Positions 2,998 through 30,848 of a stretch of 64,000 bases of DNA are shown one piece after another. Numbering within the stretch: the first letter of the stretch is position 1; each line of letters starts with the position of its first letter. Source of the stretch: Spirosoma endbachense. GTDB taxonomy: Bacteria; Bacteroidota; Bacteroidia; Cytophagales; Spirosomataceae. Under the pieces are notes generated by a model. It had not been told where the DNA came from. It did no database searches and saw only the letters and a program-made list of their open reading frames with translations. The stretch is from positions 2,887,479 to 2,951,478 of the forward strand of contig NZ_CP045997.1 of assembly GCF_010233585.1 (NCBI RefSeq), in the 5' to 3' direction. The position numbers and the translations under genes are program-made.

Positions 2998-3440
2998 TTA
3001 CTCACTTTTTGACCGACTAAAGCTCACTTTTCTCAATATTTGACCGACCAAACCTCACTTTTCGTCCGGCTAAACCTCACTTTTTCATAAAACTCAAGCA
3101 AAAAAGTGGGGATAACTGCTACAATTGTGGGGACGAAATAGACTTAAATGTGGACAAATTGAATTTTATCGGCTGTCTTTAGGATAAAAAACAGATTGGT
3201 TTGCTTCTCCCTCCCCCCTACCGACCAAAGCTCACTTTTAAACCGACTAAAGCTCACTTTGCGCACTTGACCGACTAAACCTCACTTTTAAACCGACCAA
3301 AACTCACTATTCTTAAATTAACCGACTAAACCTTACCATAGGACCGACTAAACCTCACTATAAATCCGGCCAAAACTCACTTTCTGAATATACTCAGACC
3401 GACCAAACCTTGTTTTTTAACCGACCAAACCTTGTTTTGC
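2998..3440. repeat. Iteron-type replication origin (about 12 iterons)
   Basis: About a dozen direct repeats with consensus ACCGACYAAASCTCACTTTT are present on the plus strand. They start near 3011, 3041, 3064, 3220, 3241, 3269, 3291, 3320, 3341, 3365, 3397 and 3419. They fall into two blocks (3011-3084 and 3220-3440) separated by a 135-base gap that holds a different 21-bp phased repeat. The last two iterons diverge at the 3' end (CTTGTTTT instead of CTCACTTT). The flank at 3450-3590 is very AT-rich and could be the unwinding element. Position next to the Rep_3 gene makes this the vegetative origin. Confidence 0.85.
3108..3155 (-). promoter_or_regulatory. 21-bp phased GTCCCC array, copy 1 (origin)
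   Basis: On the minus strand, GTCCAC, GTCCCC and ATCCCC begin at 3155, 3134 and 3113, exactly 21 bases apart, each preceded by a T-rich ATTT or GTT. The array sits in the gap between the two iteron blocks and matches the arrays at 5500, 24981 and 30813. The fixed step of two helical turns suggests a protein that binds one DNA face cooperatively. Its position in the origin suggests control of replication or of rep transcription. Confidence 0.6.
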
Positions 3441-3596
3441 TTCCCATAACCTTTTAATTATTAGCAGGTTATAGGCTTCCTAAATCAATCAAATAGATAT
3501 TGATAAAAATCAAAAAATCAAAACGCTAATGTTGATTATATAAAAGGGTAAAAAGGCTAAATTTATATAAACTATTTACCTTACAGGGAAATAGTT

Positions 3597-4361
3597 ATGC
3601 TATTTTTGCTAAAAATCCCCCTTATGGCTAAAGCAAAGCAATCTGATCTAGCGCCACTGCCCGCTATTCGGCTACTGTTAAAGCATTATCAAACCGATCT
3701 GCAACCTATTATTCATCAGATCAGCGCTTTACCTGTGGAATCTGATCTGGAGTATTACTTTGTTCCGGCAGAGCACATGAAACTGTTTCGACCTTATTAC
3801 AGGCCGGGCAAGCCTTACAAAAATTTTAAACTTGTCAACTTTGAGCGACCCGCTATATCCCTTACGTTTTATAATAAGCATAAATACCAAATAGGCCGTG
3901 GGGTTAAGGCAGCATCGGCGCTGACTATTCTCAAAGAGCAGCGCGACACACTATTTAATAAATCCTATCTGGATCAGCTAACGCCTGGCCAGCAACAAAA
4001 GCTACAGGAAATTGATACCTTATTACGAGCGATTCGGCATACGCCCGAAAAATTTGAGTTCTGTACCTCTAACTATGAACATTATTACCGCTACTGGTAT
4101 TGTTCATTCCGCTACTTTGAAGATCAGGAGCAGATCAAAACCGGCACGGCCAATGAGCATTTACTAAAGCATGTGCAAGCCAGTGACGAAAAGCGATCGG
4201 AACAACCTTCAATTGAGCGGCTTAACGTAATCTTTATTGATTCAAAATTCATTACCCGTCCTGTATCGTATGATAATAAACTCATCGACCGGGAATTAGA
4301 AAACTATACTGAGAAGGTGAGCTATGGTAAGTCATCACTCTATATCCGTTCAATAGAATAG
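3597..4361 (+). CDS. Hypothetical protein next to the origin
   Basis: The product is 254 residues from the ATG at 3597; a second ATG at 3624 (MAKAKQSDLAPL) is equally plausible and would drop an odd hydrophobic leader. I recognise no domain. The protein is soluble, rich in Tyr, Phe and basic residues, with a central segment NYEHYYRYWYCSFRYFEDQEQ near 160-180. There are no membrane segments. It is the first plus-strand gene downstream of the iterons and precedes a XRE regulator by about 60 bases, so it may belong to a replication or copy-control module. No function is proposed. Confidence 0.55.
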   Translation: MLFLLKIPLMAKAKQSDLAPLPAIRLLLKHYQTDLQPIIHQISALPVESDLEYYFVPAEHMKLFRPYYRPGKPYKNFKLVNFERPAISLTFYNKHKYQIGRGVKAASALTILKEQRDTLFNKSYLDQLTPGQQQKLQEIDTLLRAIRHTPEKFEFCTSNYEHYYRYWYCSFRYFEDQEQIKTGTANEHLLKHVQASDEKRSEQPSIERLNVIFIDSKFITRPVSYDNKLIDRELENYTEKVSYGKSSLYIRSIE

Positions 4362-4370
4362 ACTAAATGT

Positions 4371-4384
4371 GGACTATAGTCCAT
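4371..4384. promoter_or_regulatory. Operator-like palindrome TGGACTATAGTCCA
   Basis: This perfect 14-base palindrome lies 38 bases upstream of the XRE regulator start. Its left flank (ATAGACTAAATGTGGAC) nearly repeats the sequence ATAGACTTAAATGTGGAC at about 3138-3155, which is the outer unit of the origin array. It is therefore a good candidate for an autoregulatory operator of the XRE protein, possibly shared with the 21-bp arrays. Confidence 0.5.
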
Positions 4385-4421
4385 TTTTTAACCGCTCAGA
4401 CACAACGAACTTTGCCGTCCT

Positions 4422-5483: not shown

Positions 5484-5547
5484 GTCCCGTTTTTGTTTTA
5501 TCCCTGCGTTGTGCTGTTTCGTCCCCTACTATTAATGCTTCGTCCCC
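5484..5547 (+). promoter_or_regulatory. 21-bp phased GTCCCC array, copy 2 (upstream of methylase-helicase)
   Basis: On the plus strand ATCCCT (5500), GTCCCC (5521) and GTCCCC (5542) are spaced exactly 21 bases apart, preceded by GTTTT, GTTTC and GCTTC. An extra GTCCC at 5484 is out of phase. The array lies 130 bases upstream of the DUF1896 gene, in a 268-base gap that has no other gene. It is one of four such arrays on this element. Just beyond it, TCACTA and TAGTGA near 5572-5593 form a small inverted repeat. Confidence 0.6.
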
Positions 5548-13629: not shown

Positions 13630-14052
13630 TTAGTTAACCGCCCTTAAGGTGAAGGTTGTATCTTTCGATTGTCCCATCGAATCAACCACACGAAGCGTTA
13701 GCGCATGAGAACCTGAATCAGTCGGCAGGTACGTGAGTGTATCGCTCAATAACCGGCTCATGTTGGCTGAAACGACGATTTTTCCACCAGGCGCTAGAAC
13801 CTTGTTGTTCAGCAACAATACCGCTTTACGGGGAGCTGCTACCTGCCAGGAGAGTCGATAGGCATTGCCCGACGTGAGGTATTCTGGCTTAATACCAAAG
13901 CCCACAGAGGTTGGTTTTTGCCAGGGAATCGACGCCGGGAACGCATCCATCTCCAGTTGAAAAGGAAACGTTCGCTGTATATCGAGCGATTCAGTTTGAC
14001 AGGCTGCAACCGCCAGTAATAGGCCGCAGGCCCAGTAAATTGACGTTTTCAT
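13630..14052 (-). CDS. traQ: TraQ-like lipoprotein (DUF3872-type)
   Basis: The 140-residue product has a lipobox (LLLAVAAC, Cys at about 19), so it should be a lipoprotein. The mature part is an immunoglobulin-like beta domain with RTFPFQLEMDAFPASIPWQKPTSVGF, close to the pattern I associate with Bacteroidetes TraQ (DUF3872). It directly follows the TraO gene with a four-base ATGA overlap, the same relative order as in CTnDOT-type operons. It probably stabilises or completes the mating pore at the outer membrane. The gene name is by similarity and position. Confidence 0.6.
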   Translation of the reverse strand: MKTSIYWACGLLLAVAACQTESLDIQRTFPFQLEMDAFPASIPWQKPTSVGFGIKPEYLTSGNAYRLSWQVAAPRKAVLLLNNKVLAPGGKIVVSANMSRLLSDTLTYLPTDSGSHALTLRVVDSMGQSKDTTFTLRAVN

Positions 14053-14639
14053 CGGAAGAAACAGTAACGGATACCCAGGTATCCAGTGGTGCGAAACGTA
14101 GAAACTTCTGAAAACGGGATGTACCGTTCAGTGACTCCACCAACAAGAGCCAGCGCCGGGCCTACGTATGCTTCAGCTTCCAGCCCAAGCTGAGGCCCAA
14201 TGGCACCTGTTGACTTATTCTGTATGATGCCTTCGGCAATATTTGACTGGTTGCGGTTGACCGATTCATAGCCTACATAGAGACCCACTGTTGGCGCAAC
14301 ATAGAGCCAGCGGTGAGTCGTATAGAAACCGCACGGTACATACTCCACGGCTAACCAATAGTGCTCCACCAAAGGTTGAGGCCTAGTCTGGGCTTCATAA
14401 TACTTACGCATGTACGTAAAGGAAGCTTTCCAATACCGCTCGTTTTTGCGGTACCATACGTAATCAACGGCCCCCATATAGCCGCTATCCGGTGCATGGG
14501 GCGAGGCTATATGGGGTATGTTATCAACGATACCTACTACACAACTAACCGCTGTCTGGCCTTTTATATGCCGCTGCGCAGAGGCCTGTCGGACTACTAA
14601 TAAACTCGCGAAAAGCAGGGCTATCTGAATCGTTTTCAT
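14049..14639 (-). CDS. traO: Conjugal transfer protein TraO
   Basis: The 196-residue product begins with a signal peptide (MKTIQIALLFASLLVVRQASAQ). The mature protein starts RHIKGQTAVSCVVGIVDNIPH and consists of alternating aromatic beta strands ending in GYLGIRYCFFR, a typical outer-membrane beta-barrel C-terminus. This matches the TraO family of Bacteroidetes conjugative elements. Its ATG overlaps the traN stop (14636-14639) and its stop overlaps the traQ-like start, indicating coupled translation. It is probably an outer-membrane part of the mating channel. Confidence 0.7.
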   Translation of the reverse strand: MKTIQIALLFASLLVVRQASAQRHIKGQTAVSCVVGIVDNIPHIASPHAPDSGYMGAVDYVWYRKNERYWKASFTYMRKYYEAQTRPQPLVEHYWLAVEYVPCGFYTTHRWLYVAPTVGLYVGYESVNRNQSNIAEGIIQNKSTGAIGPQLGLEAEAYVGPALALVGGVTERYIPFSEVSTFRTTGYLGIRYCFFR

Positions 14640-15694
14640 AAGGTATCGGCGTCTAAAATATCTTGGTTAGCCATCGTGAAGGAAACGGTGCGCCCCCCGT
14701 TTTTCTCCCCTAGAATAATTTGAACAACCTTGTCATCGGGGATGGTAAACTTTTGAAAGGCGTATACTTTTTCAACCGTTTGATGACCGGGAATTATGAC
14801 TAACGGTTTGTTATATACGTAGAGGGGAGTCACCTCTAATTCCTGATGGGATGTCACTTTCGCAATCGTCTTATCCGTAATAAAAAAACGGATATAGTCC
14901 AGGTCGTAATTAATAGCAGATTTGTTCTTTATCCCTATCTTATAATAGAGTACGTTGTCCTTATAGTACAGTCCCCGTACGCTCGCCTGGATGTCGTATT
15001 TGTTAATGCCAACATGTTTGACCCGTCGGCGCTGATCGATAATGTGCGCACAGTTTTGTACGATCTCCTGTTGCGACGTGTTTACCCCAGCAAAATTGAC
15101 AATTGTACCTTTCTGGTTAACCGAGCGGGCTTTCTGTTGAACAACGCCATCCTCATTCACCGATAAATCTAGAGCCAACATCGTGGGATATTCGTTGTAA
15201 TTCACCACGAAGCTGTAAAACTGGCCATCAGCGGTCATAACACTAAAGTTCGTTTCATTAAAACCAATGCTGGACGCTTTTACGCGTAACACGTTATCAA
15301 CCGCATTGGCTTTATCGGCAATAATATCCTTCGAGCCTAAATCAACCGACCGAATAGGTGATTTGAATAGAATACAGGTCGTTTTGTTAAAGGCTAAATC
15401 AACATAGTAGGACCGAATGACGTTCCGATCCTGAATGGGAATAGAGCCATAGGAAAACACAGTGGGCAGTGTGGGAGCTTCTCCCGGCATCCCTGCACGG
15501 GCGTTACCGGGTGTAACCGCGCTAGGTGGCGCTGAATGGCTGTTTCCGTTCACCCGTTTGCGTAAGGAGTCAAGCCGTTGCGCTAGAGAATTGGTTTTGC
15601 TTGGCGTCGAATTTTTCCCCGAGTCAGGAGCCTGAGCGAAGGCTATCCGGTTCATGACGAAAAGAAAAGCGGTTAGATACAATACATTTTTCAT
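14636..15694 (-). CDS. traN: Conjugative transfer protein TraN (DUF4138), VirB9-like position
   Basis: The 352-residue product has a signal peptide (MKNVLYLTAFLFVMNRIAFAQ), a Ser/Asn-rich linker, and then the DUF4138 signature: KTTCILFKSPIRSVDLGSKD near residue 110, VLRVKAS near 137 and ETNFSVMTADGQFYSFVV near 150. The second half forms the C-terminal beta domain (YDIQASVRGLYYKDNVLYYK). TraN proteins hold the periplasmic/outer-membrane collar of the Bacteroidetes type IV secretion channel. The gene lies between traM and traO as in CTnDOT. Confidence 0.85.
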   Translation of the reverse strand: MKNVLYLTAFLFVMNRIAFAQAPDSGKNSTPSKTNSLAQRLDSLRKRVNGNSHSAPPSAVTPGNARAGMPGEAPTLPTVFSYGSIPIQDRNVIRSYYVDLAFNKTTCILFKSPIRSVDLGSKDIIADKANAVDNVLRVKASSIGFNETNFSVMTADGQFYSFVVNYNEYPTMLALDLSVNEDGVVQQKARSVNQKGTIVNFAGVNTSQQEIVQNCAHIIDQRRRVKHVGINKYDIQASVRGLYYKDNVLYYKIGIKNKSAINYDLDYIRFFITDKTIAKVTSHQELEVTPLYVYNKPLVIIPGHQTVEKVYAFQKFTIPDDKVVQIILGEKNGGRTVSFTMANQDILDADTL

Positions 15695-15703
15695 AGCCGA
15701 AAC

Positions 15704-16915
15704 TTATTTAAGCAGGACGTAATAATTGTTTTTGAGGGTAGCTTTCTGAACGGATACCTTACGGGAAAGAAAACTACGTCCTCCCTGAAGACCGGCTTGT
15801 AACGCCGAAGCCGCTGCTACGGCTGGAACATTGGTTGAATAAACGGGTGCTGAAACATTGAAACCCTGGCCTGCCTGAGCGACCACCTGACGACCTTGTT
15901 CGACCGCCAGCACGTTCGGTACATAGATGCCGGACAAGCCATCCATATCGTACACGGTTAGTCTCATGGGCAAAATACGTCCCTCATATTGTACTTGGTT
16001 GATGGCAATGTTGACTCGTTGTCGACCAAAATTGGCCACCCCGTATAGTAAACACCCCTCAGGAATCAGGCGGCCACGTAGCGTGATCGTTTCCAAAAGC
16101 CGGAGCGTGACCCGGCCTCCCGATGTAATTACCTGGTCGGAAAAAACCATTGCTTTCACGGTTACTGAAAGCGAATCCTCCGTAGCGTCCATCTGCTGCT
16201 TACGCATATCAGACTGAAGACCATAAAAACTGTTTTTACCCGTGGGACCGTTCAGTGACGAGACGGTTGTTACCTCAACCGTTTCGGGCTTGAGGGCGCG
16301 TCCCTGCGCTTCCTGTTGCCGTTTCAGTTTATCCGCCTTGTATTCCTGGAGTAGCGCTAATAATTTTTTCTCCTTCTCGATGGCTGCTTTCGTTTTAGCG
16401 GGGCTCTCATCTCCGTCATCCTCCTGCTCATCCGATAACAGATCAGCGCGAACCGATGATGACTTGGCTGATTTACGGCTTCTGGAAAAGGTACGAGGGG
16501 GAATGGTTGACGTATCGGGTTCTTGATAAATTTCTTTAGGCACACCGTTTCCATAAATGTAGGAATCGGCTTCTCCACGACGAGGCATATCCAGTTGCGG
16601 AGTTCCTGGAACATTCGAGTTAAGTCCCCGTTCTCCCCGATCTGGCATGGCCAGCGGCTGTGCATCAGCCGCCAGCTCTAGTTTGGATCGGGATGGCAGG
16701 CCCGTTGAATCGCCCGCATTGGGCAAATTTGCGTTCAGGCTGACAGGAAGCTTACCCGTCTCCGTCTCTTTAGGCCGCGTGTGATGGATGAAATAATAGA
16801 TAATAAGAATCAGGCAAACGCCAGCCCCTGTCAGGAACGTTACGAAACGTTTATCCTGAAATAGCTGCTTGATTCTACTTCCGTCGAAGCGGTCCAACGC
16901 TTGGTTGTTGTCCAT
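15704..16915 (-). CDS. traM: Conjugative transfer protein TraM, VirB10-like
   Basis: The 403-residue product has one transmembrane helix near residues 25-42 (RFVTFLTGAGVCLILIIYYF), a proline- and charge-rich periplasmic linker, and a C-terminal beta domain with DSLSVTVKAMVFSDQVITSG, RVTLRLLETITLRGRLIPEG and RLTVYDMDGLSGIYVPN. These are the TraM family signatures. VirB10-type proteins span the envelope and transmit ATPase energy to the outer-membrane channel. Its start overlaps the TraL-like gene by 41 bases. Confidence 0.85.
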   Translation of the reverse strand: MDNNQALDRFDGSRIKQLFQDKRFVTFLTGAGVCLILIIYYFIHHTRPKETETGKLPVSLNANLPNAGDSTGLPSRSKLELAADAQPLAMPDRGERGLNSNVPGTPQLDMPRRGEADSYIYGNGVPKEIYQEPDTSTIPPRTFSRSRKSAKSSSVRADLLSDEQEDDGDESPAKTKAAIEKEKKLLALLQEYKADKLKRQQEAQGRALKPETVEVTTVSSLNGPTGKNSFYGLQSDMRKQQMDATEDSLSVTVKAMVFSDQVITSGGRVTLRLLETITLRGRLIPEGCLLYGVANFGRQRVNIAINQVQYEGRILPMRLTVYDMDGLSGIYVPNVLAVEQGRQVVAQAGQGFNVSAPVYSTNVPAVAAASALQAGLQGGRSFLSRKVSVQKATLKNNYYVLLK

Positions 16916-17207
16916 GTTGTTTTTGATTTGTAGGAGTCGGAAAATGGCCGGGCCTCGCTAGGTCAGGCCTCGCCAGGCCGGAACGCGCCAGGCTGGTAGC
17001 CGTATGATACACACTTAGGCAACTCAGTAAAAGCAGGACCACTAAAGCGGAAATCAACTGAATTTTTTGAGTGCGGACGGGCTGCGTTTCCCATATACGA
17101 ACGAGCTTTCCAAGCCACGTGACGAACTGGTGTTGAGCGCGTTGATAGGCGAATGCCATACGCTCCGAGGGCGGCTTTTGCCGCCAACGTAAGAATCTGG
17201 ATACCAT
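16875..17207 (-). CDS. traL: TraL-like small membrane protein
   Basis: The 110-residue product has a basic N-terminal half (MVSRFLRWRQKPPSERMAF), one transmembrane helix (LISALVVLLLLSCLSVY, about 51-67) and a short periplasmic tail with an ARSGLARPDLARPG repeat. Its length, topology and place between TraK and TraM match the TraL (DUF3989) position, though the sequence is divergent. It overlaps the traM start in another frame. The small duplication in the tail is at about 16950-16985. Confidence 0.6.
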   Translation of the reverse strand: MVSRFLRWRQKPPSERMAFAYQRAQHQFVTWLGKLVRIWETQPVRTQKIQLISALVVLLLLSCLSVYHTATSLARSGLARPDLARPGHFPTPTNQKQHGQQPSVGPLRRK

Positions 17208-17232
17208 GGTACTTAAGGAAGCAAAGGGGTTG

Positions 17233-17892
17233 TCAGCGATTGAATTCGTACTGGTCGCGGTTAATCGTTTCGATGTCCGAGTTGTCTGTTACCCTAAACC
17301 GCTCGATGACAAAGCCATGCGGATTATTATCGGTTCGGGTCGCGTCAATCAGATAACAATCCGCTTTTAATTTTCGGAACGTGATATTGGTTGCCCGGAC
17401 CAGGAGTATCCGGGCATTGATGGAACAGTAGTAAGGGGATTTACTCATATCAAGACCTACCGAATCAATCATAATTTTTTGAATGGTATTTCCCTGAAGC
17501 AGCTTTGTATAGAATCCTTTTTCCCGTAGATCAAGATAATGCCGGGTAATTGACTCATCGCCTAGGTAAGCCGCTTGTTTCATATTCTCATTGATGGCTT
17601 TCTCATCCGGTTCCTGATTGAAAAAAAGCTTGAGAAATGTTTTGACGTGATCCTTGGCTTCGGCGGGTCGATTTGCATTTTGTTCCTGCGCCAAAGCCAG
17701 CATAATCGACTTTCCCGAGCTATCCAACACATAGATCTTTTCGCGCGACTCGTGACTGTTCTTGTAGGACAGATAAGCCACCCAGGAAGCAAAACCCAGC
17801 AAGCCAAGTAAAGCTAAAAAGACAATAGCCCGTACGAAATGAAACGACGTCTCTATATTTCGCAGGTAGCGAAAATTAAAATTTGCATTCAT
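17233..17892 (-). CDS. traK: Conjugative transfer protein TraK, VirB8-like
   Basis: This 219-residue bitopic protein has an N-terminal cytoplasmic stretch, a transmembrane helix (AIVFLALLGLLGFASWVAYLSY, about 23-44), and a periplasmic domain of about 170 residues with an NTF2-like helix-strand pattern (VKTFLKLFFNQEPDEKAINENMKQAAYLGD) as in VirB8/TraK. FHFVRAIVFL near the start is characteristic of TraK. It should act as an inner-membrane scaffold of the type IV secretion machine. It lies 18 bases after traJ. Confidence 0.85.
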   Translation of the reverse strand: MNANFNFRYLRNIETSFHFVRAIVFLALLGLLGFASWVAYLSYKNSHESREKIYVLDSSGKSIMLALAQEQNANRPAEAKDHVKTFLKLFFNQEPDEKAINENMKQAAYLGDESITRHYLDLREKGFYTKLLQGNTIQKIMIDSVGLDMSKSPYYCSINARILLVRATNITFRKLKADCYLIDATRTDNNPHGFVIERFRVTDNSDIETINRDQYEFNR

Positions 17893-17909
17893 ACACGTGA
17901 TTTTTTTAG

Positions 17910-18953
17910 TTAATAGCTACTCGCCGCAGCGATCACCCGACCACCCATCTGGCCCGAGGCCGCACCCGCTACCTGACCCGCGGTACGCAAGGGAGCCGAC
18001 ATCGCTCGCAATCCGTCCGAAACTCCCGTTGAATCTAACACCCAGGTTGCCAGTTTAGGAACCAGCAAATACCCAAAGATGCCCACCGCATAAAATAACA
18101 GATTGGCAATCGATGAGCTAGGCATACCAGGATTACCCTGAAGTTGTTGAAATTCAACCGTTAAACTGGAAAGGTGAAAACTATCCAGAATGAAGCCGTA
18201 CATGTTAGCAATCGGAATCCATAAAAGGGTGTGCAAAACCCGACCCACCCAGGCCGCAATGGACGAATAAAACCAATCAAAGCAGCCTAATCCAATCGTC
18301 AGGGGACCGAATATGCCCAGGATAATCAGAAAATACGTGGAGATAATTTTGAGGCCAATAATGACGATAAAATAAATCAGCCTGAATAAAGCCATCAAGA
18401 CATAATTCACCGTCGTGTCGATCACAAAATTCACCGCGTCCGCAGCCGCTGATGAAATCGAATTAGACATACCCATGACCGCATCGGTCATTAACTGAAA
18501 CCAGGACCGATTGTCCTCCGCAGCGGCTACCGGCGGTGGATTGTTGGAATTAGTCAAATTCTGGATGCGCGTTTTTGCGTTGGTGATTACCTGCTGCTCC
18601 ACGTCATCGCGCCGGGAAGCCCCCATTTCCTGCGTAGCCTCGTTGAGCGTTCTCCCTACATACACCAGGCCACTATACAAACCAGGATAGGACAATAAAA
18701 GCATCGAAATGACCAGTGGCCGAATCAACGGGAAAATATCAATCGCTTCATTTCGGGCCTGATGCGCCCATAACCGGTAGAAGACATAAAACAAAGCGCC
18801 TATAAGTCCTATTGCCTGCCCGATGGCCATAAAGGATGAGAATTCAGGCAGCATTGTATCAAATAAGGCATCAGCGGCTTCTTCAATACTGGTTATGGCA
18901 CCACTGGCACCCGAAGCGTTCCAGCCGGTTCCAGGAGCTTGAAGTAACATCAT
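17910..18953 (-). CDS. traJ: Conjugative transfer protein TraJ, VirB6-like polytopic membrane protein
   Basis: The 347-residue product has several hydrophobic segments (about 46-60, 80-100, 190-245 and 270-310), including LMALFRLIYFIVIIGLKIIS and YFLIILGIFGPLTIGLGCF. These fit the TraJ/VirB6 family, which forms the inner-membrane translocation platform. The C-terminus is Gly/Ala-rich. Two ATGs begin the frame (MMLLQ). The gene shares four bases with the end of the preceding lipoprotein gene, so the two are probably coupled. Confidence 0.8.
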   Translation of the reverse strand: MMLLQAPGTGWNASGASGAITSIEEAADALFDTMLPEFSSFMAIGQAIGLIGALFYVFYRLWAHQARNEAIDIFPLIRPLVISMLLLSYPGLYSGLVYVGRTLNEATQEMGASRRDDVEQQVITNAKTRIQNLTNSNNPPPVAAAEDNRSWFQLMTDAVMGMSNSISSAAADAVNFVIDTTVNYVLMALFRLIYFIVIIGLKIISTYFLIILGIFGPLTIGLGCFDWFYSSIAAWVGRVLHTLLWIPIANMYGFILDSFHLSSLTVEFQQLQGNPGMPSSSIANLLFYAVGIFGYLLVPKLATWVLDSTGVSDGLRAMSAPLRTAGQVAGAASGQMGGRVIAAASSY

Positions 18954-19420
18954 GGTTTATAGCGGAAAGAAGTGACTTTAGATAACTGTAACTGACTTGC
19001 ATTAAAGCCGCCCGGCCCCCGGCAGCTGGTGGCCAGGGCGGGTGAATTTATTTGTAGACGGTCTGTACTGACCAGTCGCAAAAAATCAAACCCGTAGCCC
19101 TGCCCAACGCCATGATTTGCCTGAGCCAGTTGCAGGGAATCATCCCACCAGATTGGCATAGTTGTCACAATAGGTCCGCAGGCATAGGTTTTCTGATTGG
19201 TCGTATCGACCAACTGAGAAAAGTAGGTCCATAGCAACGAATCACCAGAGGCTTCAACGGAAACGCCCGCTTGGAAAATCTGATTGCCAATACCCGGTAC
19301 GACAGTCTCCCAGCGGCCTATGTAACCAGGAGGAAAAGCAGAGGCTTCCCGCCTAAACCGTTCGTGCTTGGTCTGACAAGCCGCCGTCAGCAAGCCTAGC
19401 ATTATGAGTGCGTTTTTCAT
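18950..19420 (-). CDS. Lipoprotein inserted between TraI- and TraJ-type genes
   Basis: The 156-residue product has a clear lipobox (MLGLLTAAC, Cys at about 15). The mature part has GRWETVVPGIGNQIFQAGVS, a beta-rich segment, and two further cysteines (YACGP and TSCRGPGG) that could form a disulphide. No family is recognised. It overlaps both neighbours by four bases, so it belongs to the tra operon. In other systems small lipoproteins at this place take part in entry exclusion or pore assembly; either is only a suggestion here. Confidence 0.6.
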   Translation of the reverse strand: MKNALIMLGLLTAACQTKHERFRREASAFPPGYIGRWETVVPGIGNQIFQAGVSVEASGDSLLWTYFSQLVDTTNQKTYACGPIVTTMPIWWDDSLQLAQANHGVGQGYGFDFLRLVSTDRLQINSPALATSCRGPGGFNASQLQLSKVTSFRYKP

Positions 19421-20352
19421 TTCTTTTTGAAGCGAACCATGTACGGGTCAGAGATTTTTTTGCTTAGCATCGACCGCATAGCCTGTTCCGATTCCGCCAA
19501 CCGGTAATAATCAACCGAGGCCGCAACCTTCGTCCCAAAACTGACTAGATCCTGATGCTGCTGTTTGGCTTGAGCTAGCGATTTCTGCTGCGATTTTAGC
19601 CGTTCATAGGGCGATAGAAAAACAGGCTTGCCTTTCATGGCACTAAACGCGTTACGGGCCTTTATCAAATCCGTATTACCCAGCGTCCCCATGACGATGG
19701 CGTTGTTGTAAAAGGCTACATCATCCGTTGATGCCTTATCAAGATAGCGTTTGATCATTTTTGAGGTCGGTCCGCCATTGTCGTAACTCTGATCAATAGC
19801 GGAGACTTCGGTTCCCCATATATCTTTGGTCATTTTGCTTTCTATGCCTTTGATAGGAGAATCTTTGAGGGCTTTAGTCTCTTCATTATGTTGCAGGGCC
19901 CATTCGTACCTTAGTTTAAAATCCTGATAGTTGAGCTTATTCAACCGCTCCTGCCCGTCCTTCCATACTTCCCGCAATGAAGCCAGTTTTTTAACGAGTC
20001 GCTTATCCTTGGTTTTTTGATAAATTGACATGATTTTTTCCGCCGCAGGAGCCACAACAACCGCATCCGCAATGGCTTTAATCATCTCATCCAGCGCCTT
20101 ATTGACCATAAGGTTCATTAGATCGACGCCCGGATCAACAATCCCCCGTTTGATCTTACTTTCGGTCATGCCGAGCACCTTATCAATCTCAGCCTGAAGC
20201 GCTGGATCGGTTGGCATACCTCCCTGCAATTGCCCTGGGCCTAAAACATCGGTAGCTTCATCCTGAGCCTGGCTACGAAAGGGTAAAAAGTTTAGTAGCC
20301 CTAGGATAATTAGCAGGCTTACTAAACGCGCGTAATTAGTTTGAATAGACAT
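19417..20352 (-). CDS. Periplasmic tra protein at the TraI position (VirB5-like)
   Basis: The start is placed at 20352 (MSIQTNYARLVSLLIILGLL), which gives a proper signal peptide ending in FRSQAQ and overlaps the previous gene by only 17 bases. The frame extends to 20490 but that part lies inside the previous gene. The mature protein is helical (KIMSIYQKTKDKRLVKKLASL; QKSLAQAKQQHQDLVSFGTK), as in VirB5/TraI-type minor pilus or channel proteins. It contains an LRYEWALQHNEE segment similar to VDYAWKKSHT in the gene before it, so the two may be diverged duplicates. Confidence 0.55.
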   Translation of the reverse strand: MSIQTNYARLVSLLIILGLLNFLPFRSQAQDEATDVLGPGQLQGGMPTDPALQAEIDKVLGMTESKIKRGIVDPGVDLMNLMVNKALDEMIKAIADAVVVAPAAEKIMSIYQKTKDKRLVKKLASLREVWKDGQERLNKLNYQDFKLRYEWALQHNEETKALKDSPIKGIESKMTKDIWGTEVSAIDQSYDNGGPTSKMIKRYLDKASTDDVAFYNNAIVMGTLGNTDLIKARNAFSAMKGKPVFLSPYERLKSQQKSLAQAKQQHQDLVSFGTKVAASVDYYRLAESEQAMRSMLSKKISDPYMVRFKKK

Positions 20353-21319
20353 GGTTGAGGCCCGATTTTCGTTGAAAGCTATTTTGCTTAAATTCATCCG
20401 ACTGCTGCTTTGCGATACGGTAGACGTAGATTCGCCGTAACTGGTCCCGCAGGCTACCAATCGCTTCCAATCGCTTTTTGATGTCTTCATCCGCCTGATC
20501 CAGTACGTCCATGCGTTCCCCCTGGGACATCCAAGAAACCGTAACCCCTAACCCGTTGCTACCTAAGTTACAAACAATGTTGACCGAAGAGGCTAGATCC
20601 TGCGTATTCCCCACCGACTTAAGTAACGACGCATAGCCTTGGCGTTCCTGCGCCGAAAAGACGGGTGAACTCAACACCTTATTCAGATCCTGAACGTGGC
20701 TTTTTACCGCGTCAAATAGCCCTTTAATGTTCAACTCCTTATAGTAGGAACAGAACTCAGGGGAGAGGGAGGTATGCGATTTTTTCCAGGCGTAATCGAC
20801 CTTAAGCGTCTGGTAGGTAATTTTTTGCTGCGCCGAGTAACCATCCGCAACCATCTTTTTCAGCCGTTCAACTTCTCCGGCCGGTGTGGTACCCACATCC
20901 GCAATTTTTGAGGCTAGTTGCGCAATCTTATCACTGATACCCGACATAATCTGATCTTCCTTTTCACCAATCAGATTGGAGACTTCATCGGACAGCTCAT
21001 CCTTCATGCTCGCGAAGTAGCCCGTCAGATCAGTGCCAATGCTACTCAAGACATTATCCGGAGAAAGCTGATTCGACAAGTTTTCCACGTAGTTGCCAAT
21101 TACATCGCCCAGGTCATCTTTAGCGACTTTAATGGGTGCTTGACCCGGAAAGATAACGGTCGCTTTGCCGATGAGTGGCACATCAACGATGGGCATATAC
21201 TGGCTCATATCGGGCGGCGTACCCGTCGTGTCAGCCGACTGAGCCAGGCTTACTGTTGCGCTTACGGCCACTAGAAGCAACGAAAAAATGCCCCGATAAA
21301 CAAACTTGACTGGTTTCAT
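20336..21319 (-). CDS. Periplasmic tra protein, probable paralogue of the next gene
   Basis: The 327-residue product has a signal peptide (IFSLLLVAVSATVSLAQ). The mature part carries IVDVPLIGKATVIFPGQAP, then long helices (EVSNLIGEKEDQIMSGISDKIAQLASKI) and a TLKVDYAWKKSHTSLSPEFCSYYKEL motif. It sits directly after traG, where CTnDOT-type operons carry TraH/TraI. The helical, secreted character fits a VirB5-like component that contacts the channel or recipient. I cannot match it to DUF4141 with confidence. Confidence 0.5.
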   Translation of the reverse strand: MKPVKFVYRGIFSLLLVAVSATVSLAQSADTTGTPPDMSQYMPIVDVPLIGKATVIFPGQAPIKVAKDDLGDVIGNYVENLSNQLSPDNVLSSIGTDLTGYFASMKDELSDEVSNLIGEKEDQIMSGISDKIAQLASKIADVGTTPAGEVERLKKMVADGYSAQQKITYQTLKVDYAWKKSHTSLSPEFCSYYKELNIKGLFDAVKSHVQDLNKVLSSPVFSAQERQGYASLLKSVGNTQDLASSVNIVCNLGSNGLGVTVSWMSQGERMDVLDQADEDIKKRLEAIGSLRDQLRRIYVYRIAKQQSDEFKQNSFQRKSGLNHVYSN

Positions 21320-21324
21320 AGAAT

Positions 21325-23844
21325 TTATGCATTTAGATCTTCAGCGACTACTTCTTTAAGGGCTAAATCATAATTTCCACCGTTCGACTTAATCTTACGA
21401 GAGACCCGGATTTTTTCTCTTTGCTCGGTGGTGAAGGCATAGTATTCGGGCCGTGAAACTTCCAGACCATAGACACGATACCGCTGTCCACCCCAGCTGA
21501 CAAAAAATTCTTTGTACTTGCGATTGGGATCGTTATCCCGGTTCATCGATAAGACTAAGTCTTTTTCCTTATCGGTCAGGCCCAGCAACTCTTTGACAAA
21601 AGTGAATTTGTTTTCGTACTTGCGCTGATCCATCAGAATCTTACAATCGGCGTTGTTGACGATGGAATCTTGGACGATTGGATTATTGATGATATCCTGA
21701 ATCTCCTGGGTTACGATCCAGGCTTCTCCGTCGAACTTACGTACCGTTTTGTAGAGGTACTTTATGTAGCCCGCCATGTTCGGCGTCATGATTGCTTTCC
21801 AAGCCTCTTCAATCAAAATGATTTTCCGAGTCCCTTCCAGCCTTCGCATTTTAGAAATAAACGTATCCATCACAATGATGGTGACAATAGGAAACAGGAT
21901 CGGGTGATCCTTCACGTTGTCCAACTCAAAGACGATAAACGGTTCGTGGAGTAAATCCAGGTTTTCCGTGGAATTGAGCAGAAAATCAAATTCACCTCCC
22001 GTATAATAGGGTTTGAGATTGAACATGAAATTGTCAAAATCAAAGTAGTCATCTTTAACCCCTTCCCGGTTCAGATACGCTTTAAAATCGTCGTGCATGA
22101 ACTCATAGAAAGTATTGAAGCAGGCGACAATGTCGGGGTTCTCCCGAAGCTTACTAAAATAGCCCATCACTGCCGACGACAGCGCATTATATTCCGAGCG
22201 GTTGGTTTTCTCTTCTACAGATTTCCATAGCGTCAGCAGCAAGTTTTTTAACGATTCCGCTTTCTCCGTATCCGGCATCAACCGTCCCTCAATGTGAAAC
22301 GGGTTGAAGTGAATCGGCTTTTCCATGGTGTAGGTAATGTATTTCCCTCCCAGCATGGCGCACAAACCCCGGTACGAATCCCCAACGTCTACGATCACCA
22401 CGTGCGCACCGTGCGTATGATAGCTCCGTAGCAGGTGGTTGGTTAAAAAGCTTTTACCCGATCCCGAAGGGCCAATGATGAATTTGTTGCGATTGGTGAC
22501 CCAATTTTTTTGCATGGGTTCATCCGAAAAATCCACCCAGAGGGGCCGACCGGACAGGCGATCGACAACCCGGACGCTATTCCTTGACGATTCCGAGGTA
22601 TAGTAATTCGTTTCGTGATTGAACAGACAGGCCGCCTGGGGAGCAAACTGCGTAAACGTGTCTTCACGGGGCAGATCGGGAGAATTACCCGGGATACCGG
22701 CCCAGAACAGAAACGCGGCATCTTTGGTGTTCTCACGCGGCTTCAAATTCATCTTAGCAATAGCCGCCGTTGTTTTGTTACGCAGTTCGGGTAACCGCAG
22801 CTTATCATCGGTCCACACCTGTACATTGGAATGAATACGAATAGGCGTCCACGATTTTTCAGCCGCCAACGTCAGGAAGTTGTTGACCATGCCCGCATTG
22901 ACGGAGTTGGCCCGGTCAAAGTTGGATAAAGCCAGCATGTTGCCCGCTTTCTTTTCAAGCTCCGCCGTGATGAGTGTTTTATCATCGACAAACACGTACT
23001 GATTGTAGATGTGATTGCAGTCTAGCATCAGGCCGATGGGGGTTGCGTACCCTACCGATAGATTCGAGTTTTCAGTCGATAATGCGCCAATCCGAACATT
23101 GGTGTTTATCGCATCTGGCATATCATCCACTTGCGAAATGGTAAAGTATTTAACAAACTTCCCCCCTATCCGCAGCTCATCCTCTGAGGTAAAGTCCATA
23201 TCCATCAAGGGTACGACTTCATCCTTGAGCGATAAGGTCATGTACCGCTCGATTAAACCGGCCTGCCCTACCGGAGCATCCCGATCCGGTTGCAATTCAT
23301 CATTCCCTAAGCGCCGGCATTTAATGAGTCTTGAGGATTCAAGGATCGATTTCAATTGGAGAACCGCCACTATGAACTTATCAATCTCCTGGGTATTAAG
23401 TGCCCGCTTGGGGACTAGCCCCGGTTTGAGTAAGGAAGTTGCCCCCGCCTTCGTACGCGTTCGCTCACCCTGAGAATACGTTACGTACAAAAAGCACTCA
23501 TGATGCAAAAATGGACGCTCATTGAAGTGCAGTTCGGATGAACGGTCCAAATAACTTTCGGGTAATTCCTTGGCGTTAGGACGATACCTTTCTTCAACAA
23601 ACCAATCCTGTTTGTGCAGAATTGTACCCGCTGGCAAAACGCCTATTGCTTTTGTCCAGGTCTCCACCAATTCCCGGTAGTCACCCATTTCCGAGCCGTT
23701 TTCAAACCGCGCATTGAGAGTAAAAATTTCCGGGAGGGTAAGTTGGAATGCCAGCGTTAAGTCGCCCCATTTAGAAAAAATACAGTTTTCTTCGACCGCG
23801 CCGAGTGGAAAGACTTTTGCCAGTTCTTTTACAGAATATGCCAT
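21325..23844 (-). CDS. traG: Conjugation ATPase TraG (VirB4 family)
   Basis: This 839-residue ATPase powers the mating channel. Walker A GPSGSGKSFLTNHLL begins at about residue 458. Walker B is in RKIILIEEAWKAIM, near 675, and EAWIVTQEIQDIINNP follows near 705. The N-terminal half carries the VirB4/TraG domain with DWFVEERYRP and LSVGYATPIGL. Length and the C-terminal segment KEFFVSWGGQRYRVYGLEVSRPEY match TraG of Bacteroidetes conjugative transposons. It lies 20 bases after traF. This is the best-conserved marker of the transfer system. Confidence 0.95.
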   Translation of the reverse strand: MAYSVKELAKVFPLGAVEENCIFSKWGDLTLAFQLTLPEIFTLNARFENGSEMGDYRELVETWTKAIGVLPAGTILHKQDWFVEERYRPNAKELPESYLDRSSELHFNERPFLHHECFLYVTYSQGERTRTKAGATSLLKPGLVPKRALNTQEIDKFIVAVLQLKSILESSRLIKCRRLGNDELQPDRDAPVGQAGLIERYMTLSLKDEVVPLMDMDFTSEDELRIGGKFVKYFTISQVDDMPDAINTNVRIGALSTENSNLSVGYATPIGLMLDCNHIYNQYVFVDDKTLITAELEKKAGNMLALSNFDRANSVNAGMVNNFLTLAAEKSWTPIRIHSNVQVWTDDKLRLPELRNKTTAAIAKMNLKPRENTKDAAFLFWAGIPGNSPDLPREDTFTQFAPQAACLFNHETNYYTSESSRNSVRVVDRLSGRPLWVDFSDEPMQKNWVTNRNKFIIGPSGSGKSFLTNHLLRSYHTHGAHVVIVDVGDSYRGLCAMLGGKYITYTMEKPIHFNPFHIEGRLMPDTEKAESLKNLLLTLWKSVEEKTNRSEYNALSSAVMGYFSKLRENPDIVACFNTFYEFMHDDFKAYLNREGVKDDYFDFDNFMFNLKPYYTGGEFDFLLNSTENLDLLHEPFIVFELDNVKDHPILFPIVTIIVMDTFISKMRRLEGTRKIILIEEAWKAIMTPNMAGYIKYLYKTVRKFDGEAWIVTQEIQDIINNPIVQDSIVNNADCKILMDQRKYENKFTFVKELLGLTDKEKDLVLSMNRDNDPNRKYKEFFVSWGGQRYRVYGLEVSRPEYYAFTTEQREKIRVSRKIKSNGGNYDLALKEVVAEDLNA

Positions 23845-23864
23845 AATTGCGCCCTTAGTTGTGC

Positions 23865-24185
23865 TTATTTTTTACGAAGATTTCGGTAAACCGAATCCTG
23901 TCGAACCGTTACGATCCCCGGTAATTTCTTGCGGGCTTTCGTCCGCTCGTAGCCCCCCGCCCCCTGATTGGCTGAGCGTTTAACCAGGCCCATGTAGACG
24001 GCGTAACTCCCCATGCCACAGGCTGAAAAAATCACCCATCCAGGTAGTGGCACAAAAACCGCTGATACCCCCCCCGTAACGACGATGCCAATAATCCATT
24101 TGACCAGTAGAGCCAGGTAATCCATGCCTACTACGCCCCGTACCTGGGGAGGGCGATCCGCGCCTTTATTAATTTCGTACGCCAT
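23865..24185 (-). CDS. traF: Conjugative transfer protein TraF (DUF4133), VirB3-like
   Basis: The 106-residue product starts MAYEINKGADRPPQVRGVVG, close to the DUF4133 consensus, and has two adjacent transmembrane segments (about 25-45 and 48-68). VirB3-type proteins sit beside the VirB4 ATPase in the inner membrane, and traG follows directly. The C-terminus is basic and cytoplasmic. It is ten bases from the traE stop. Confidence 0.85.
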   Translation of the reverse strand: MAYEINKGADRPPQVRGVVGMDYLALLVKWIIGIVVTGGVSAVFVPLPGWVIFSACGMGSYAVYMGLVKRSANQGAGGYERTKARKKLPGIVTVRQDSVYRNLRKK

Positions 24186-24195
24186 CGTGAAGCGC

Positions 24196-24528
24196 TTATT
24201 TGCCGAAAGCAGCCGTTAAGACGAGCCCGACGACACCGGCAAACACGATAGCCGCGCCCCAGTTAATGACACTTTTCTTGAAATCGGGGTCATTGTTGAA
24301 GAATTTGGAAGCGCAGGATATACCCCCCACAAAGCCCATTATCAGGCATAAAGGCAACATGAGGTCACCTACGCTTTTGCCGACATCTTGAAGCTCTGAG
24401 GTTGCTTTATCAACACCTTTGGCAATAGCGCCCGATTGTAGGCCTTGGGCATACAGATTCCCTGTTGATAGAACAAAACCTATTACCAGAGCGAGCGCTG
24501 CGAAGTAATGAACGCGAACGTTTTTCAT
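24196..24528 (-). CDS. traE: Conjugative transfer protein TraE (DUF4134), VirB2-like pilin
   Basis: The 110-residue product has a cleavable signal peptide (LALVIGFVLSTGNLYAQG) and two hydrophobic helices (LMLPLCLIMGFVGGISCA and AIVFAGVVGLVLTAAFGK) separated by FFNNDPDFKKSVINWG. This is the DUF4134/TraE pattern, similar in size and topology to VirB2 pilin. It is the first gene of the contiguous mating-pore operon, so the 532-base leader upstream should carry the operon promoter. Confidence 0.85.
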   Translation of the reverse strand: MKNVRVHYFAALALVIGFVLSTGNLYAQGLQSGAIAKGVDKATSELQDVGKSVGDLMLPLCLIMGFVGGISCASKFFNNDPDFKKSVINWGAAIVFAGVVGLVLTAAFGK

Positions 24529-25060
24529 TGTGAAATAAATTAGTTAGTGAACTATTGAATGCGTTTAAAACGGAGTGGTACTAGTCGGTTTTGCCTGAGG
24601 GCAGTTCCGTAGACCCAAGTTTGGGGTAACGGATACCCCATGCCAATTTCCCTTCAGGAAGTTCTTGGCTGTGTTGCCCGATTCGCTGTCTGAAGGCGGT
24701 GGGATAAGGGGCCTGAGCTTACTGTTTGATCGCCCCTCACAAGCCTATTGCCGGTTAGCGGCGCACGCCGAGCTAGCCCCCTATTGCGTCTCTGTTTCAT
24801 AATTTTAAAAATTGAACTATCTAGTGAAAGTGTAATATTTAAATTAGTATTTAGACCATTCAATCAACCTTTCATAAACTATTATACAACTAACCTACAG
24901 CCGTCAACGGAGAATACAAACATGTTAAGTATTCGATGTTACAACATTGATAACTTAAATAGTGGCTGTGAGTCTCATTGGTCCCCAAAAAAAAGGGGTT
25001 TATCCCCAGAAGTATTCGTTTCGTCCTCGCAAAAAATTTTAAACATTTTTTATAAAATTT
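24529..25060 (-). promoter_or_regulatory. tra operon leader with 21-bp phased array (copy 3) and shared block
   Basis: No convincing gene lies in this 532-base gap. On the plus strand GTCCCC (24981), ATCCCC (25002) and GTCCTC (25023) are exactly 21 bases apart. Next to them, 24957-24994 is a near-perfect match, in inverted orientation, to 30799-30836: AATAGTGGCTGTGAGTCTCA followed by TTRGTCCCC and eight A. Read toward the tra genes, both copies have the same orientation relative to their downstream gene. Further down, a hairpin GGGGTA/TACCCC lies at 24623-24639. The element is about 430 bases from traE, leaving room for a long untranslated leader. Confidence 0.6.
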
Positions 25061-26538: not shown

Positions 26539-26551
26539 AAAAGTATACGGT

Positions 26552-28587: not shown

Positions 28588-28588
28588 G

Positions 28589-30679
28589 ATGGTCATTCGG
28601 CTAACAGTTGGGACACAAATCGGCGGGGCGCTGCGCTATAATGAACAAAAAGTTGTTCAGAAACAGGCTCATGTACTGGGTGCCACCGGCTTTGCCAACA
28701 ATGAGTTAGCTGAAAAAAGTCTGCGTTATGCCGCCAATGTTTTAGAAAGTCAGGCCAAAAAGAATGCAAATGTCAAAAAGCCAACGCTTCACTTTTCGCT
28801 GAGTTTGCACCCCACTGAGCAGGTTAGCGATGATAAATTCAAAGCGATGGCCCACCAGTTTATGGCTGAAATGGGTTACCAGCATCAGCCTTATATGGTT
28901 TATCGCCATCACGATACGGCCCATCCTCACATTCACATAGTGACCACCTGCGTCGATGAAACAGGTCATAAGGTCAACGATTCCTTTATTAAACGGCGGA
29001 CAAATGCCGTACGCCAGCAGCTGGAGCTGCGCTTTGGTCTCATCAAAGCCCAAGGTCGAGGTAAAGGAAAAACTACTGAGCAGATCCGTCAGGCGAGACC
29101 GGTGCAAGCTGACGAGGTGACGCCCGGACAGGCCCAGCCAACAAGGGGCTTTGACAGGAAAGACCAGTTGGAAGCCATTCTGCGGGAAACCTTTCAGCAA
29201 GCGACGTTCAACAACTTAGATGAATACCGAGCACTGTTAAAGAAACAGCATATTCATACGGTTTTACATCAGAGTTCAGTGGCTGGAAAAGCCCTTCGGG
29301 GCATTAGTTACCAGTTCACCGATGAGGCTGGTAAACCGGCAACGCCCCGAATTAAAGCCAGTGAAATCGGAACCTGGGCTACCTGGAAAGAGATAGAAAA
29401 GCAGTTTGGCAAGAGGGGCCAGCAGCAGGGGCAAGACCCGTCAACTCAGCTTACGTATGAGAAGTATAAAGTGCTGGCATCGATCCTGTCGGATGACCTA
29501 CGGGCGTACAAAAAACAGCAGTACATCTATTACGATAGCGCCTTACTTGAAAATTTTCCAACGGCAGCTATGCAAGCCCGGCTCCAGGCCATCACCCAGC
29601 ACAAACTAAGCGAGGGGGAACTCAACGAGGCTGTGCGTCGCTTTGAAGCGTACAAACGTGCGCAACTACCTGACATTATTAAGAAGGAACAGTTGGCCTT
29701 TACGCGTACGATGGAAACCTATACCCAGATCGCTAGTGAGATCCGGGGTAGTGCTCAAAACAAAAATGACTTTTTTTCGGCCCTTAGTGTGGAAATAACG
29801 GTCGATGGCTGGATCACCAGTCCGACCAATCGTCATGTAGCTTACCCGATCGGGCGAGCAGCGCTAGAGCGAATTCAAACCGGTGATGGGCCTGAGCTTA
29901 CCATGCCTACGCTCTATTCACGGGGAGAACGGACGGTTATGCTGCTGAGTCAGTCGAAAAAGCCTTTTAAGGAAAGCTACTACGATGTACGGGCGGATCA
30001 CCTGCAACGCATCCTGAAACCGGAGCGGATGAGCAGTATCCATGCCCAACTGAACGCCAACTACGTCGCTCGGCTACTGGCAGACGGCCCCGTTTTAGGC
30101 GTGGACCAGGTACGCTATTTTTATCAACGGGGCATAGTGCTAGATCCACCGCAACTGGCTACGGGTAAGACAGACAACGAATCCGCTTTTACAATTCGCT
30201 ACCACCAAGCCCCCCATCAGGCGGCCGTAGCGGCTGGAAAAATGTTCGAGAAACAGATACCTCATCTCCATGTAGAGCACTGGCAAAAGGGATTATCGAC
30301 TGAGGCCGGTCGATACATGGTCGCTTTGGTGCAATTGATAGACCAGGTCAAGCGTGGCCAAGAGAAGAACGGCAACGAAAAGTCGAACGATCTTGCCTTC
30401 TTGCGGGAGCGAATACATCATTGTGATCCGGCCTTGGTTATGTTCTCCGATGAGGACTTGGTCAGCGTGTTAGAGAAGCGGAGCTTACAGGGAAAAGGCT
30501 GGATTAAACAAACCGATCTGGAATCTAAGCAGGACACGAACGCTTACATGAATGAGTCGGCCCTATATACCTCCCTTTTAAACATCCGAGCCATAGATGT
30601 ATTCGGCTACGAGCAAACAGGCAAGTATAAAAACGTAGGGAAGGGTATAAAAAAACGGGACAAAGGCCGAGAATTATAA
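28589..30679 (+). CDS. mobA: Relaxase, MobA/VirD2 family
   Basis: The 696-residue protein has the relaxase fold at its N-terminus. Conserved motifs are the opening MVIRLTVGTQIGGALRYNEQK, which contains a candidate catalytic Tyr at about residue 17, PTLHFSLSLHPTE at about 65-77, and the metal-binding three-His motif HDTAHPHIHIVTTCVDE at about 107-123. It would nick oriT, stay bound to the 5' end and be carried into the recipient. The long C-terminal half is helical without known domains. It is cotranscribed with mobC and precedes the coupling protein. Confidence 0.9.
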   Translation: MVIRLTVGTQIGGALRYNEQKVVQKQAHVLGATGFANNELAEKSLRYAANVLESQAKKNANVKKPTLHFSLSLHPTEQVSDDKFKAMAHQFMAEMGYQHQPYMVYRHHDTAHPHIHIVTTCVDETGHKVNDSFIKRRTNAVRQQLELRFGLIKAQGRGKGKTTEQIRQARPVQADEVTPGQAQPTRGFDRKDQLEAILRETFQQATFNNLDEYRALLKKQHIHTVLHQSSVAGKALRGISYQFTDEAGKPATPRIKASEIGTWATWKEIEKQFGKRGQQQGQDPSTQLTYEKYKVLASILSDDLRAYKKQQYIYYDSALLENFPTAAMQARLQAITQHKLSEGELNEAVRRFEAYKRAQLPDIIKKEQLAFTRTMETYTQIASEIRGSAQNKNDFFSALSVEITVDGWITSPTNRHVAYPIGRAALERIQTGDGPELTMPTLYSRGERTVMLLSQSKKPFKESYYDVRADHLQRILKPERMSSIHAQLNANYVARLLADGPVLGVDQVRYFYQRGIVLDPPQLATGKTDNESAFTIRYHQAPHQAAVAAGKMFEKQIPHLHVEHWQKGLSTEAGRYMVALVQLIDQVKRGQEKNGNEKSNDLAFLRERIHHCDPALVMFSDEDLVSVLEKRSLQGKGWIKQTDLESKQDTNAYMNESALYTSLLNIRAIDVFGYEQTGKYKNVGKGIKKRDKGREL

Positions 30680-30766
30680 CTGTAAGGGGCGAGGTCTGGA
30701 CACCGGGTGATTCAACAGGCAACCAGTTTTACGAATAAAATTTAAAAAAAGATGAAAAATTTATTA

Positions 30767-30848
30767 GGGACAAATCGGATTTTTAGGGGGACGAACGCCT
30801 TTTTTTTGGGGACTAATGAGACTCACAGCCACTATTCAGATTATCAAT
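30767..30848 (+). promoter_or_regulatory. 21-bp phased array (copy 4) plus shared block, upstream of coupling protein
   Basis: On the minus strand GTCCCC (begins 30813), GTCCCC (30792) and GTCCCT (30771) are exactly 21 bases apart. Directly adjacent on the plus strand is TAATGAGACTCACAGCCACT followed by ATT, then TTATCAAT, which matches the tra leader in the same orientation relative to the gene. The block ends 90 bases before the coupling-protein ATG. The repeated arrangement strongly suggests that coupling protein and mating-pore genes share one regulator. Confidence 0.6.

Follow-up and report, generated by a model that had tools for sequence, protein, structure and literature searches.

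To our knowledge, the main studied case of two-component control of conjugation in the Bacteroidota is RteA/RteB of CTnDOT. AgrA and BtsR are regulators of the LytTR family. RteA/RteB is a two-component system carried by the Bacteroides element CTnDOT, where it controls conjugation genes; the tetracycline-induced RteB acts through RteC (PMC1976400). On Ti plasmids, TraR together with tra boxes at tra, trb, traM and repABC ties transfer to copy number (PMC3907764). LytTR regulators, studied in the HdrR and BrsR LytTR regulatory systems (LRS) of Streptococcus mutans, use 9-bp direct repeats, in most cases separated by 12 bp; the repeat sequences are poorly conserved between systems, they are often autoregulatory, and the autoregulatory repeats usually lie about 10 bp from a promoter element (PMC6193735). 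All comparisons with these three papers refer to excerpts of them. The DNA analyzed here, called the window, is a stretch of 64,000 nucleotides of Spirosoma endbachense (G000:C1:2887479-2951478), whose genome is a single contig of 10.3 Mb. As identified by its encoded proteins and repeats, the window holds a plasmid-like conjugative element with Rep3, iteron-like repeats, a methylase-helicase, a tra operon, ParA/DUF3408, MobC, a relaxase and VirD4. Four arrays of short direct repeats on this element are probably binding sites of an element-encoded LytTR-type regulator, and would form a plasmid-borne regulon joining replication and conjugation; we put the probability of this reading at roughly 0.7.

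Each array had three units, and all 12 sites were recovered at the coordinates and on the strands given in a preliminary description of the window, with every step exactly 21 bp. That description had assigned a GTCCCC core to every unit. The spacing was exact throughout, but only 6/12 units carried GTCCCC itself, the others being GTTATCCCC, TTTGTCCAC, TTTATCCCT, TTTATCCCC, TTCGTCCTC and TTTGTCCCT. The unit is TTYGTCC(C/T)C, and the period of 21 bp consists of a 9-bp repeat and a 12-bp spacer. The origin array (3108..3158, minus strand) comprised GTTATCCCC (3108-3116), TTCGTCCCC (3129-3137) and TTTGTCCAC (3150-3158). It was flanked by two iteron-like repeat clusters, as judged by eye, and lay 186-236 bp upstream of the start of the Rep3-family replication initiator gene (1795..2922, minus strand; Pfam Rep3_N 3.3e-18, Rep3_C 8.9e-14). 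The second array (5497..5547, plus strand; TTTATCCCT, TTCGTCCCC, TTCGTCCCC) preceded an operon consisting of a 129-aa open reading frame (ORF5678; 5678-6067, plus strand), for which Pfam and NCBIfam scans gave no family, and the gene for a 1686-aa N6-methylase/SNF2-type helicase (6057-11117, plus strand; Pfam N6_Mtase, Helicase_C). The third (24978..25028, plus strand; TTGGTCCCC, TTTATCCCC, TTCGTCCTC) was located before the tra operon (13630..24528, minus strand; DUF4134, DUF4133, TraG, TraM, DUF4138, TraO and others by Pfam), and the fourth (30766..30816, minus strand; TTTGTCCCT, TTCGTCCCC, TTAGTCCCC) before virD4, encoding the VirD4/TraG coupling protein (30909-33041, plus strand; Pfam YWFCY, TraG-D_C).

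The arrays exceeded chance expectation, as the preliminary description had proposed. With a graded array score, defined after the arrays had been seen, four triplets at step 21 reached at least 25 in the window, and none did at steps 15-20 and 22-30; 300 order-1 simulations of the window gave none, their best score being 22.6. The exact triple GTCCCC-N15-GTCCCC-N15-GTCCCC, the form in which the arrays had been put forward, gave 0 matches in the whole genome. The doublet TTYGTCCCC-N12-TTYGTCCCC with at most two mismatches had 11 matches in the 10.3-Mb genome, eight of them inside the four arrays, while the reversed-pattern control had one. In pooled element sequence, triplets scoring at least 20 numbered 49 at step 21 (overlapping registers and chance occurrences counted), and each of the fifteen other steps between 15 and 30 yielded 3-22. 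De novo counts of 9-mer repeats by step were not discriminating alone, since several further steps, 22 among them, scored as well.

Related elements were chosen by VirD4 (79-91% identical), giving seven core elements from Spirosoma and Fibrisoma: G000 (the window), G015, G005, pFLIM01, G029, G010 and G032. Some contigs of these and further genomes were examined in part (G029, 142/348 kb; G005:C33, 120/203 kb; G016, 80/160 kb; G003, 80/228 kb; G014, 80/168 kb; G009, 75/189 kb). ORF5678 and the methylase-helicase were both found in 7/7 core elements. An array was present upstream of tra in all seven and upstream of ORF5678 likewise, the latter with three units in G000, G015, G005 and pFLIM01, two in G029 and G032, and two weak ones in G010. 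Six of the seven had an array upstream of virD4, and six upstream of Rep3, where it was weak in G010 and G032. Searching plasmids at the nucleotide level with the tra array returned only three short, chance-like matches. Lack of conservation in related plasmids would have spoken against the arrays, but they are conserved across related elements. A single conserved set covering rep/ori, tra, the coupling protein and ORF5678/methylase-helicase, as had been claimed, is thus present; the claimed tie between replication and transfer is suggested by the positions of the sites.

The preliminary description knew of no annotated family that could explain the arrays. This was not supported: LytTR regulators use the same format of 9 + 12 bp direct repeats (PMC6193735), and the arrays are accompanied by a LytTR protein encoded on the element. 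Two features of a LytTR regulon, a LytTR-domain protein encoded together with the sites and 9-bp repeats at 11-13 bp spacing, were found. In the window, we infer that the candidate regulator is the response regulator at 41765..42484 (plus strand; Pfam Response_reg 1.9e-15, LytTR 2e-15), paired with the histidine kinase at 40283..41737 (plus strand; Pfam His_kinase 5.2e-20), the proposed sensor, which displayed six hydrophobic segments followed by the His_kinase domain in a hydropathy plot. The first gene, ahead of kinase and regulator, encodes an SDR oxidoreductase (39454..40254, plus strand; Pfam adh_short 1.6e-49), and the same order of SDR, kinase and response regulator genes was seen in G005 and G015. 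A search of solved structures matched the receiver part; none of the 44 matches listed covered the LytTR domain.

In G010 and G029, a stand-alone LytTR protein of 161-167 aa was encoded with a further array upstream, and an array also preceded the stand-alone LytTR gene in pFLIM01 and, with two units, in G032. All seven core elements encoded a LytTR domain related to the stand-alone protein of G029 and G010. In G000, G005 and G015, the best match of the genome to the G029 protein was the one on the element; in G000 it stood first out of 69 LytTR matches. Phylogenetic analysis placed 12 plasmid LytTR domains on one side of a branch with support 100/99, and 14 plasmid rows with support 98/96 after addition of S. 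oryzicola and Fibrella. These trees compared the plasmid rows with 30 of the 69 G000 LytTR domains, namely those with loci given (best Pfam scores), and with eight other response regulators of the same contigs.

More distant plasmids carried an operon of an open reading frame or GNAT gene, a kinase gene and a LytTR gene: G002, G016, G003, G009 (= pSLIN01), S. oryzicola CP089543 and Fibrella CP155473. All of these operons were preceded by 21-bp-spaced TTYGTCC-like repeats. A TTYGTCC pair at step 21 was detected before the LytTR gene or operon in nine of the ten plasmids tested, the tenth, G032, having a weaker step-21 pair; other steps from 14 to 30 gave 0-3/10. In this test the ends of the upstream windows were set by hand for G002 and G016, because the predicted start of the open reading frame runs through the array, and the chromosomal control, 2/30, used 1500 bp upstream of the domain rather than of the gene. 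G000, G015, G005 and G014, with no visible array before LytTR, were outside the ten-plasmid test; over the whole LytTR group, step-21 repeats preceded the LytTR gene or operon in 10/14 plasmids.

The predicted promoters of tra (TTTG-N19-TAGGTTAG; 24890..24920, minus strand) and virD4 (the same form; 30874..30904, plus strand) were the only exact matches of TTTG-N19-TAGGTTAG in the window, and they are close to the Bacteroidota -7 consensus TAnnTTTG (PMC9723704, seen in excerpt). At both, the proximal array edge lay 60 bp from TTTG, and the distance was 59-60 bp in G015 and G005. The geometry test covered G000, G015, G005 and G029 and took the ATG at 30939 as the start of virD4; the virD4 start codons of the G015, G005 and G029 rows were mis-set, which shifted positions and left the array-to-promoter distance unaffected.

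The arrays, their positions and conservation, and related LytTR domains on the same elements were observed directly. From them a possible course of regulation can be outlined. The kinase, with six predicted membrane segments, would sense a signal and act on the LytTR response regulator. Since LytTR direct repeats are about two helical turns apart, an array of three TTYGTCC(C/T)C units with the 21-bp step would put three LytTR domains on one face of the DNA. The regulator would act from about 60 bp upstream of the matched promoters at tra and virD4, and also from the arrays at the Rep3 origin and before the methylase-helicase operon, such that transfer, the coupling protein, anti-restriction-type genes and replication could be switched as one regulon. 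The circuit would be autoregulated in those plasmids whose LytTR gene or operon has an array in front of it. In this scheme we infer that the protein binds the DNA, that it activates and does not repress, that a signal is sensed, and that copy number and transfer are affected.

Compared with the LytTR systems of Streptococcus mutans (PMC6193735), the proposed circuit is alike in the LytTR domain, the 9-bp repeats, the mostly 12-bp spacers and the frequent autoregulatory site. It differs in having three units instead of two, in the repeat TTYGTCCCC, in the distance of about 60 instead of about 10 bp from the promoter, and in its targets, which are plasmid replication and conjugation genes; the window regulator has a kinase and a receiver, and no LRS membrane inhibitor. 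Like TraR on Ti plasmids (PMC3907764), one plasmid regulator would serve one motif at rep and transfer promoters. However, TraR is a LuxR-type activator on 18-bp inverted repeats, whereas the parts found here are LytTR and kinase proteins with direct repeats, and therefore this is not a TraR-family member although it may work like the TraR system. The likeness to RteA/RteB (PMC1976400) lies in element-borne two-component control of conjugation in Bacteroidota; repeat arrays at rep, tra and virD4 are not described in the excerpt of that paper. A search of open-licence papers, by title and start of abstract, for LytTR with conjugation or plasmids and for conjugative plasmids of Spirosoma found no description of such a regulon. 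If the reading is true, a LytTR two-component circuit coordinates plasmid replication and conjugation in Bacteroidota, the motif TTYGTCCCC every 21 bp predicts which plasmid genes switch together, and a search for the signal of the kinase might reveal a trigger of transfer. More generally, repeat spacing can indicate the family of a regulator where the repeat sequence is unfamiliar.

Several observations weigh against a LytTR regulon. The core-element scan did not detect the virD4 array in G010 or the origin array in pFLIM01. Arrays above threshold were found before the LytTR operon in G002, G016, G003 and G009, with none at tra or virD4, and G014, a member of the LytTR group, had no array within the 80 kb examined. 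The G005 element was divided between contigs, with LytTR/rep on one and tra on another. No array was seen before the SDR-kinase-LytTR genes of G000, G015 and G005; as the window genes have no array of their own, autoregulation is not general. A second LytTR response regulator is encoded in G010, G029, G032 and pFLIM01. The geometry test found no promoter of the TTTG-N19-TAGGTTAG form at tra or virD4 of G029. The 59-60 bp between array and -33 element exceed the approximately 10 bp usual for autoregulatory LytTR repeats; closeness to the -35/-33 element is usual for such repeats and is no known requirement of all LytTR sites, and the larger distance counts against a simple copy of the known LytTR mechanism. 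The motif TTYGTCCCC shares little with LytTR repeats such as ACCACTTAT and is no close fit to the classical repeats; LytTR repeats as a whole vary in sequence from system to system (PMC6193735). Across 36 genomes of the genus, the doublet had 86 matches and the reversed control 106, which indicates an excess confined to the elements rather than one found throughout the genus.

The genes beside kinase and regulator raise the possibility of cell-to-cell signaling, in which the neighboring enzyme would make a signal, the membrane kinase would sense it, and the LytTR sites would switch on replication, anti-restriction-type genes and conjugation. The neighbor was an SDR gene in G000 (by Pfam), G015 and G005 (alike by sequence), a GNAT-type acyltransferase gene in pSLIN01, S. 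oryzicola (Pfam 2-4e-5) and Fibrella plasmids (by annotation, as also for S. oryzicola), and a similar open reading frame of 357-396 aa in G002, G016 and G003 (likeness by eye). In G010, G029, G032 and pFLIM01, however, it was LanB-like, and similar kinase-LytTR-LanB sets in Hymenobacter plasmids look like lantibiotic clusters. We consider the signaling reading rather unlikely. The LanB-type lantibiotic dehydratase gene of G010 adjoins the stand-alone LytTR gene (L121:3544-6654), and the LanB-like region of G032 (G032:C3:78542-81485) is split into three frames in the list of open reading frames. The plasmid LytTR matches inspected were three from Hymenobacter, one from Bacteroides and one from Parabacteroides, plus three that were used. 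The three Hymenobacter matches lie in lantibiotic-type clusters (kinase-LytTR-LanB), and those from Bacteroides and Parabacteroides have other contexts; because these contexts differ, the claim of a LytTR regulon is kept to Spirosoma, Fibrisoma and Fibrella.

Beside the tra and virD4 arrays lie imperfect operator-like palindromes of the GTGnC-N5-GnCAC type (24962..24976 and 30818..30832, respectively), which from their sequence are a putative second operator. The composite of array and palindrome occurred 10 times in 6/36 genomes, always at tra or virD4, and the control had none. The origin arrays of G015 and G005 had a similar palindrome, by eye, about 10 bp (about one helical turn) further away. 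XRE repressors usually bind palindromes, and the preliminary description had named two XRE proteins, XRE-4422 and XRE-33108 (33108-33428, plus strand; Pfam HTH_3), as candidates for binding the arrays. XRE-4422 adjoins the origin and has homologues in 7/7 core elements and in G003, and XRE-33108 follows virD4. Both fit worse than LytTR, and neither was found in all of the array-bearing sequences searched. XRE-33108 was found in only 4/7 core elements (whole contigs searched for G010 and G032, 142/348 kb for G029). The XRE-4422 homologue of G010 reached only 45% over 60 aa, and at E 1e-5 none was found in the array-bearing G002:C6 (whole 92-kb contig) or G016:C13 (80/160 kb examined). The palindromes would suit an XRE protein better than the arrays do, but they are also present where XRE-33108 was not found. 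That either XRE protein reads the arrays is therefore unlikely.

Slightly less probable is that the block at tra and virD4 is mainly a terminator shielding the promoter from upstream transcription, with the repeat pattern there partly a by-product. The tra array contains a terminator-like hairpin, GGGG-ATAAA-CCCC followed by T8, reading toward tra (24987..25007, minus strand). By eye, 10/13 tra and virD4 sites showed a short G/C hairpin (4-5 pairs) with T8 behind it, oriented toward the gene, and matched changes on both sides occurred in the tra sites of G029, G010 and G032. Hairpins were taken from printed sequences, the labels of pFLIM01 tra and virD4 being interchanged in that folding set, and the folding energies are meaningless for five sites (wrong segment for G015_tra, pFLIM_virD4, G029_tra and G032_tra; whole stretch for G032_virD4). 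On the other hand, the stem has only 4-5 bp, and the terminator scan did not list the tra-array hairpin, which is below its 5-pair threshold. The hairpin is degenerate at virD4 of the window, G029 and G032, and the arrays at ori, ORF5678 and the LytTR genes keep the 21-bp step with no T8 hairpin by eye. At tra and virD4 the hairpins may terminate transcription coming from the operon upstream, and this could hold together with LytTR binding.

One array lies between iteron-like clusters, and iterons of the Rep3 type are likewise direct repeats, at about 21-22 bp. The arrays might accordingly be accessory, iteron-like Rep3 binding sites controlling copy number or incompatibility rather than promoter operators. 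However, three of the four arrays are at promoters of other operons, and pFLIM01 has a Rep without an origin array. G000 and G015/G005, whose Rep proteins are 59% identical, have different iteron-like repeats but share the motif of the array lying between these, and thus Rep is an improbable reader of the array; we consider this a little less probable still than the terminator. A DnaA-box reading of the origin array (TTATCCCC and TTTGTCCAC resembling TTATCCACA) was set aside because the same motif occurs at three non-origin promoters. Lastly, an 81-nt inverted repeat, 83% complementary (24946-25026 and 30768-30848), could suggest transposon ends with the units recognized by a transposase as in TnsB- or IS21-type elements, but this was rejected as very improbable, since the interval encodes a 285-aa protein (no Pfam family), DUF3408, ParA, MobC and a relaxase, with no transposase among these five proteins scanned, both arms adjoin outward-reading copies of the same -33/-7 elements in a layout that recurs in related elements, and the other two arrays are without the inverted-repeat flanks.

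The left flank of the element (L050:8742-19432) carried leucine/isoleucine-biosynthesis-type genes followed by a DDE transposase gene. Judging from these biosynthesis-type genes, the element appears to sit in the chromosome in this assembly despite its plasmid Rep3 and iteron-like repeats. The equivalent element type in Fibrisoma limi is the plasmid pFLIM01. Another Rep3 gene of the same genome (G000:C1:9264609-9265694) was 53% identical to that of the window, with a partial VirD4 match about 8 kb away, perhaps representing another integrated plasmid. Outside the studied elements, similar TTTGTCCGC-N12-TTTGTCC pairs with the 21-bp step occurred at G005:C50:838749, G014:C71:254563 and G035:C33:679523, one per genome; these may reflect a conserved site or a match within coding sequence. 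Upstream of mobC and the relaxase gene, the window contained strong palindromes (27585-27718), among them an inverted repeat whose 23-bp arms match perfectly (27670-27718), and this may be an oriT or partition-site region. A large defence-like cluster was recognized at 43183-60024 by sequence comparison and Pfam, including mad8/HerA-like, mad7-like and PglW/mad6-like genes, a DUF1016 (YhcG-type) nuclease, and a specificity subunit and a methylase with an AbiEi-like N-terminus.

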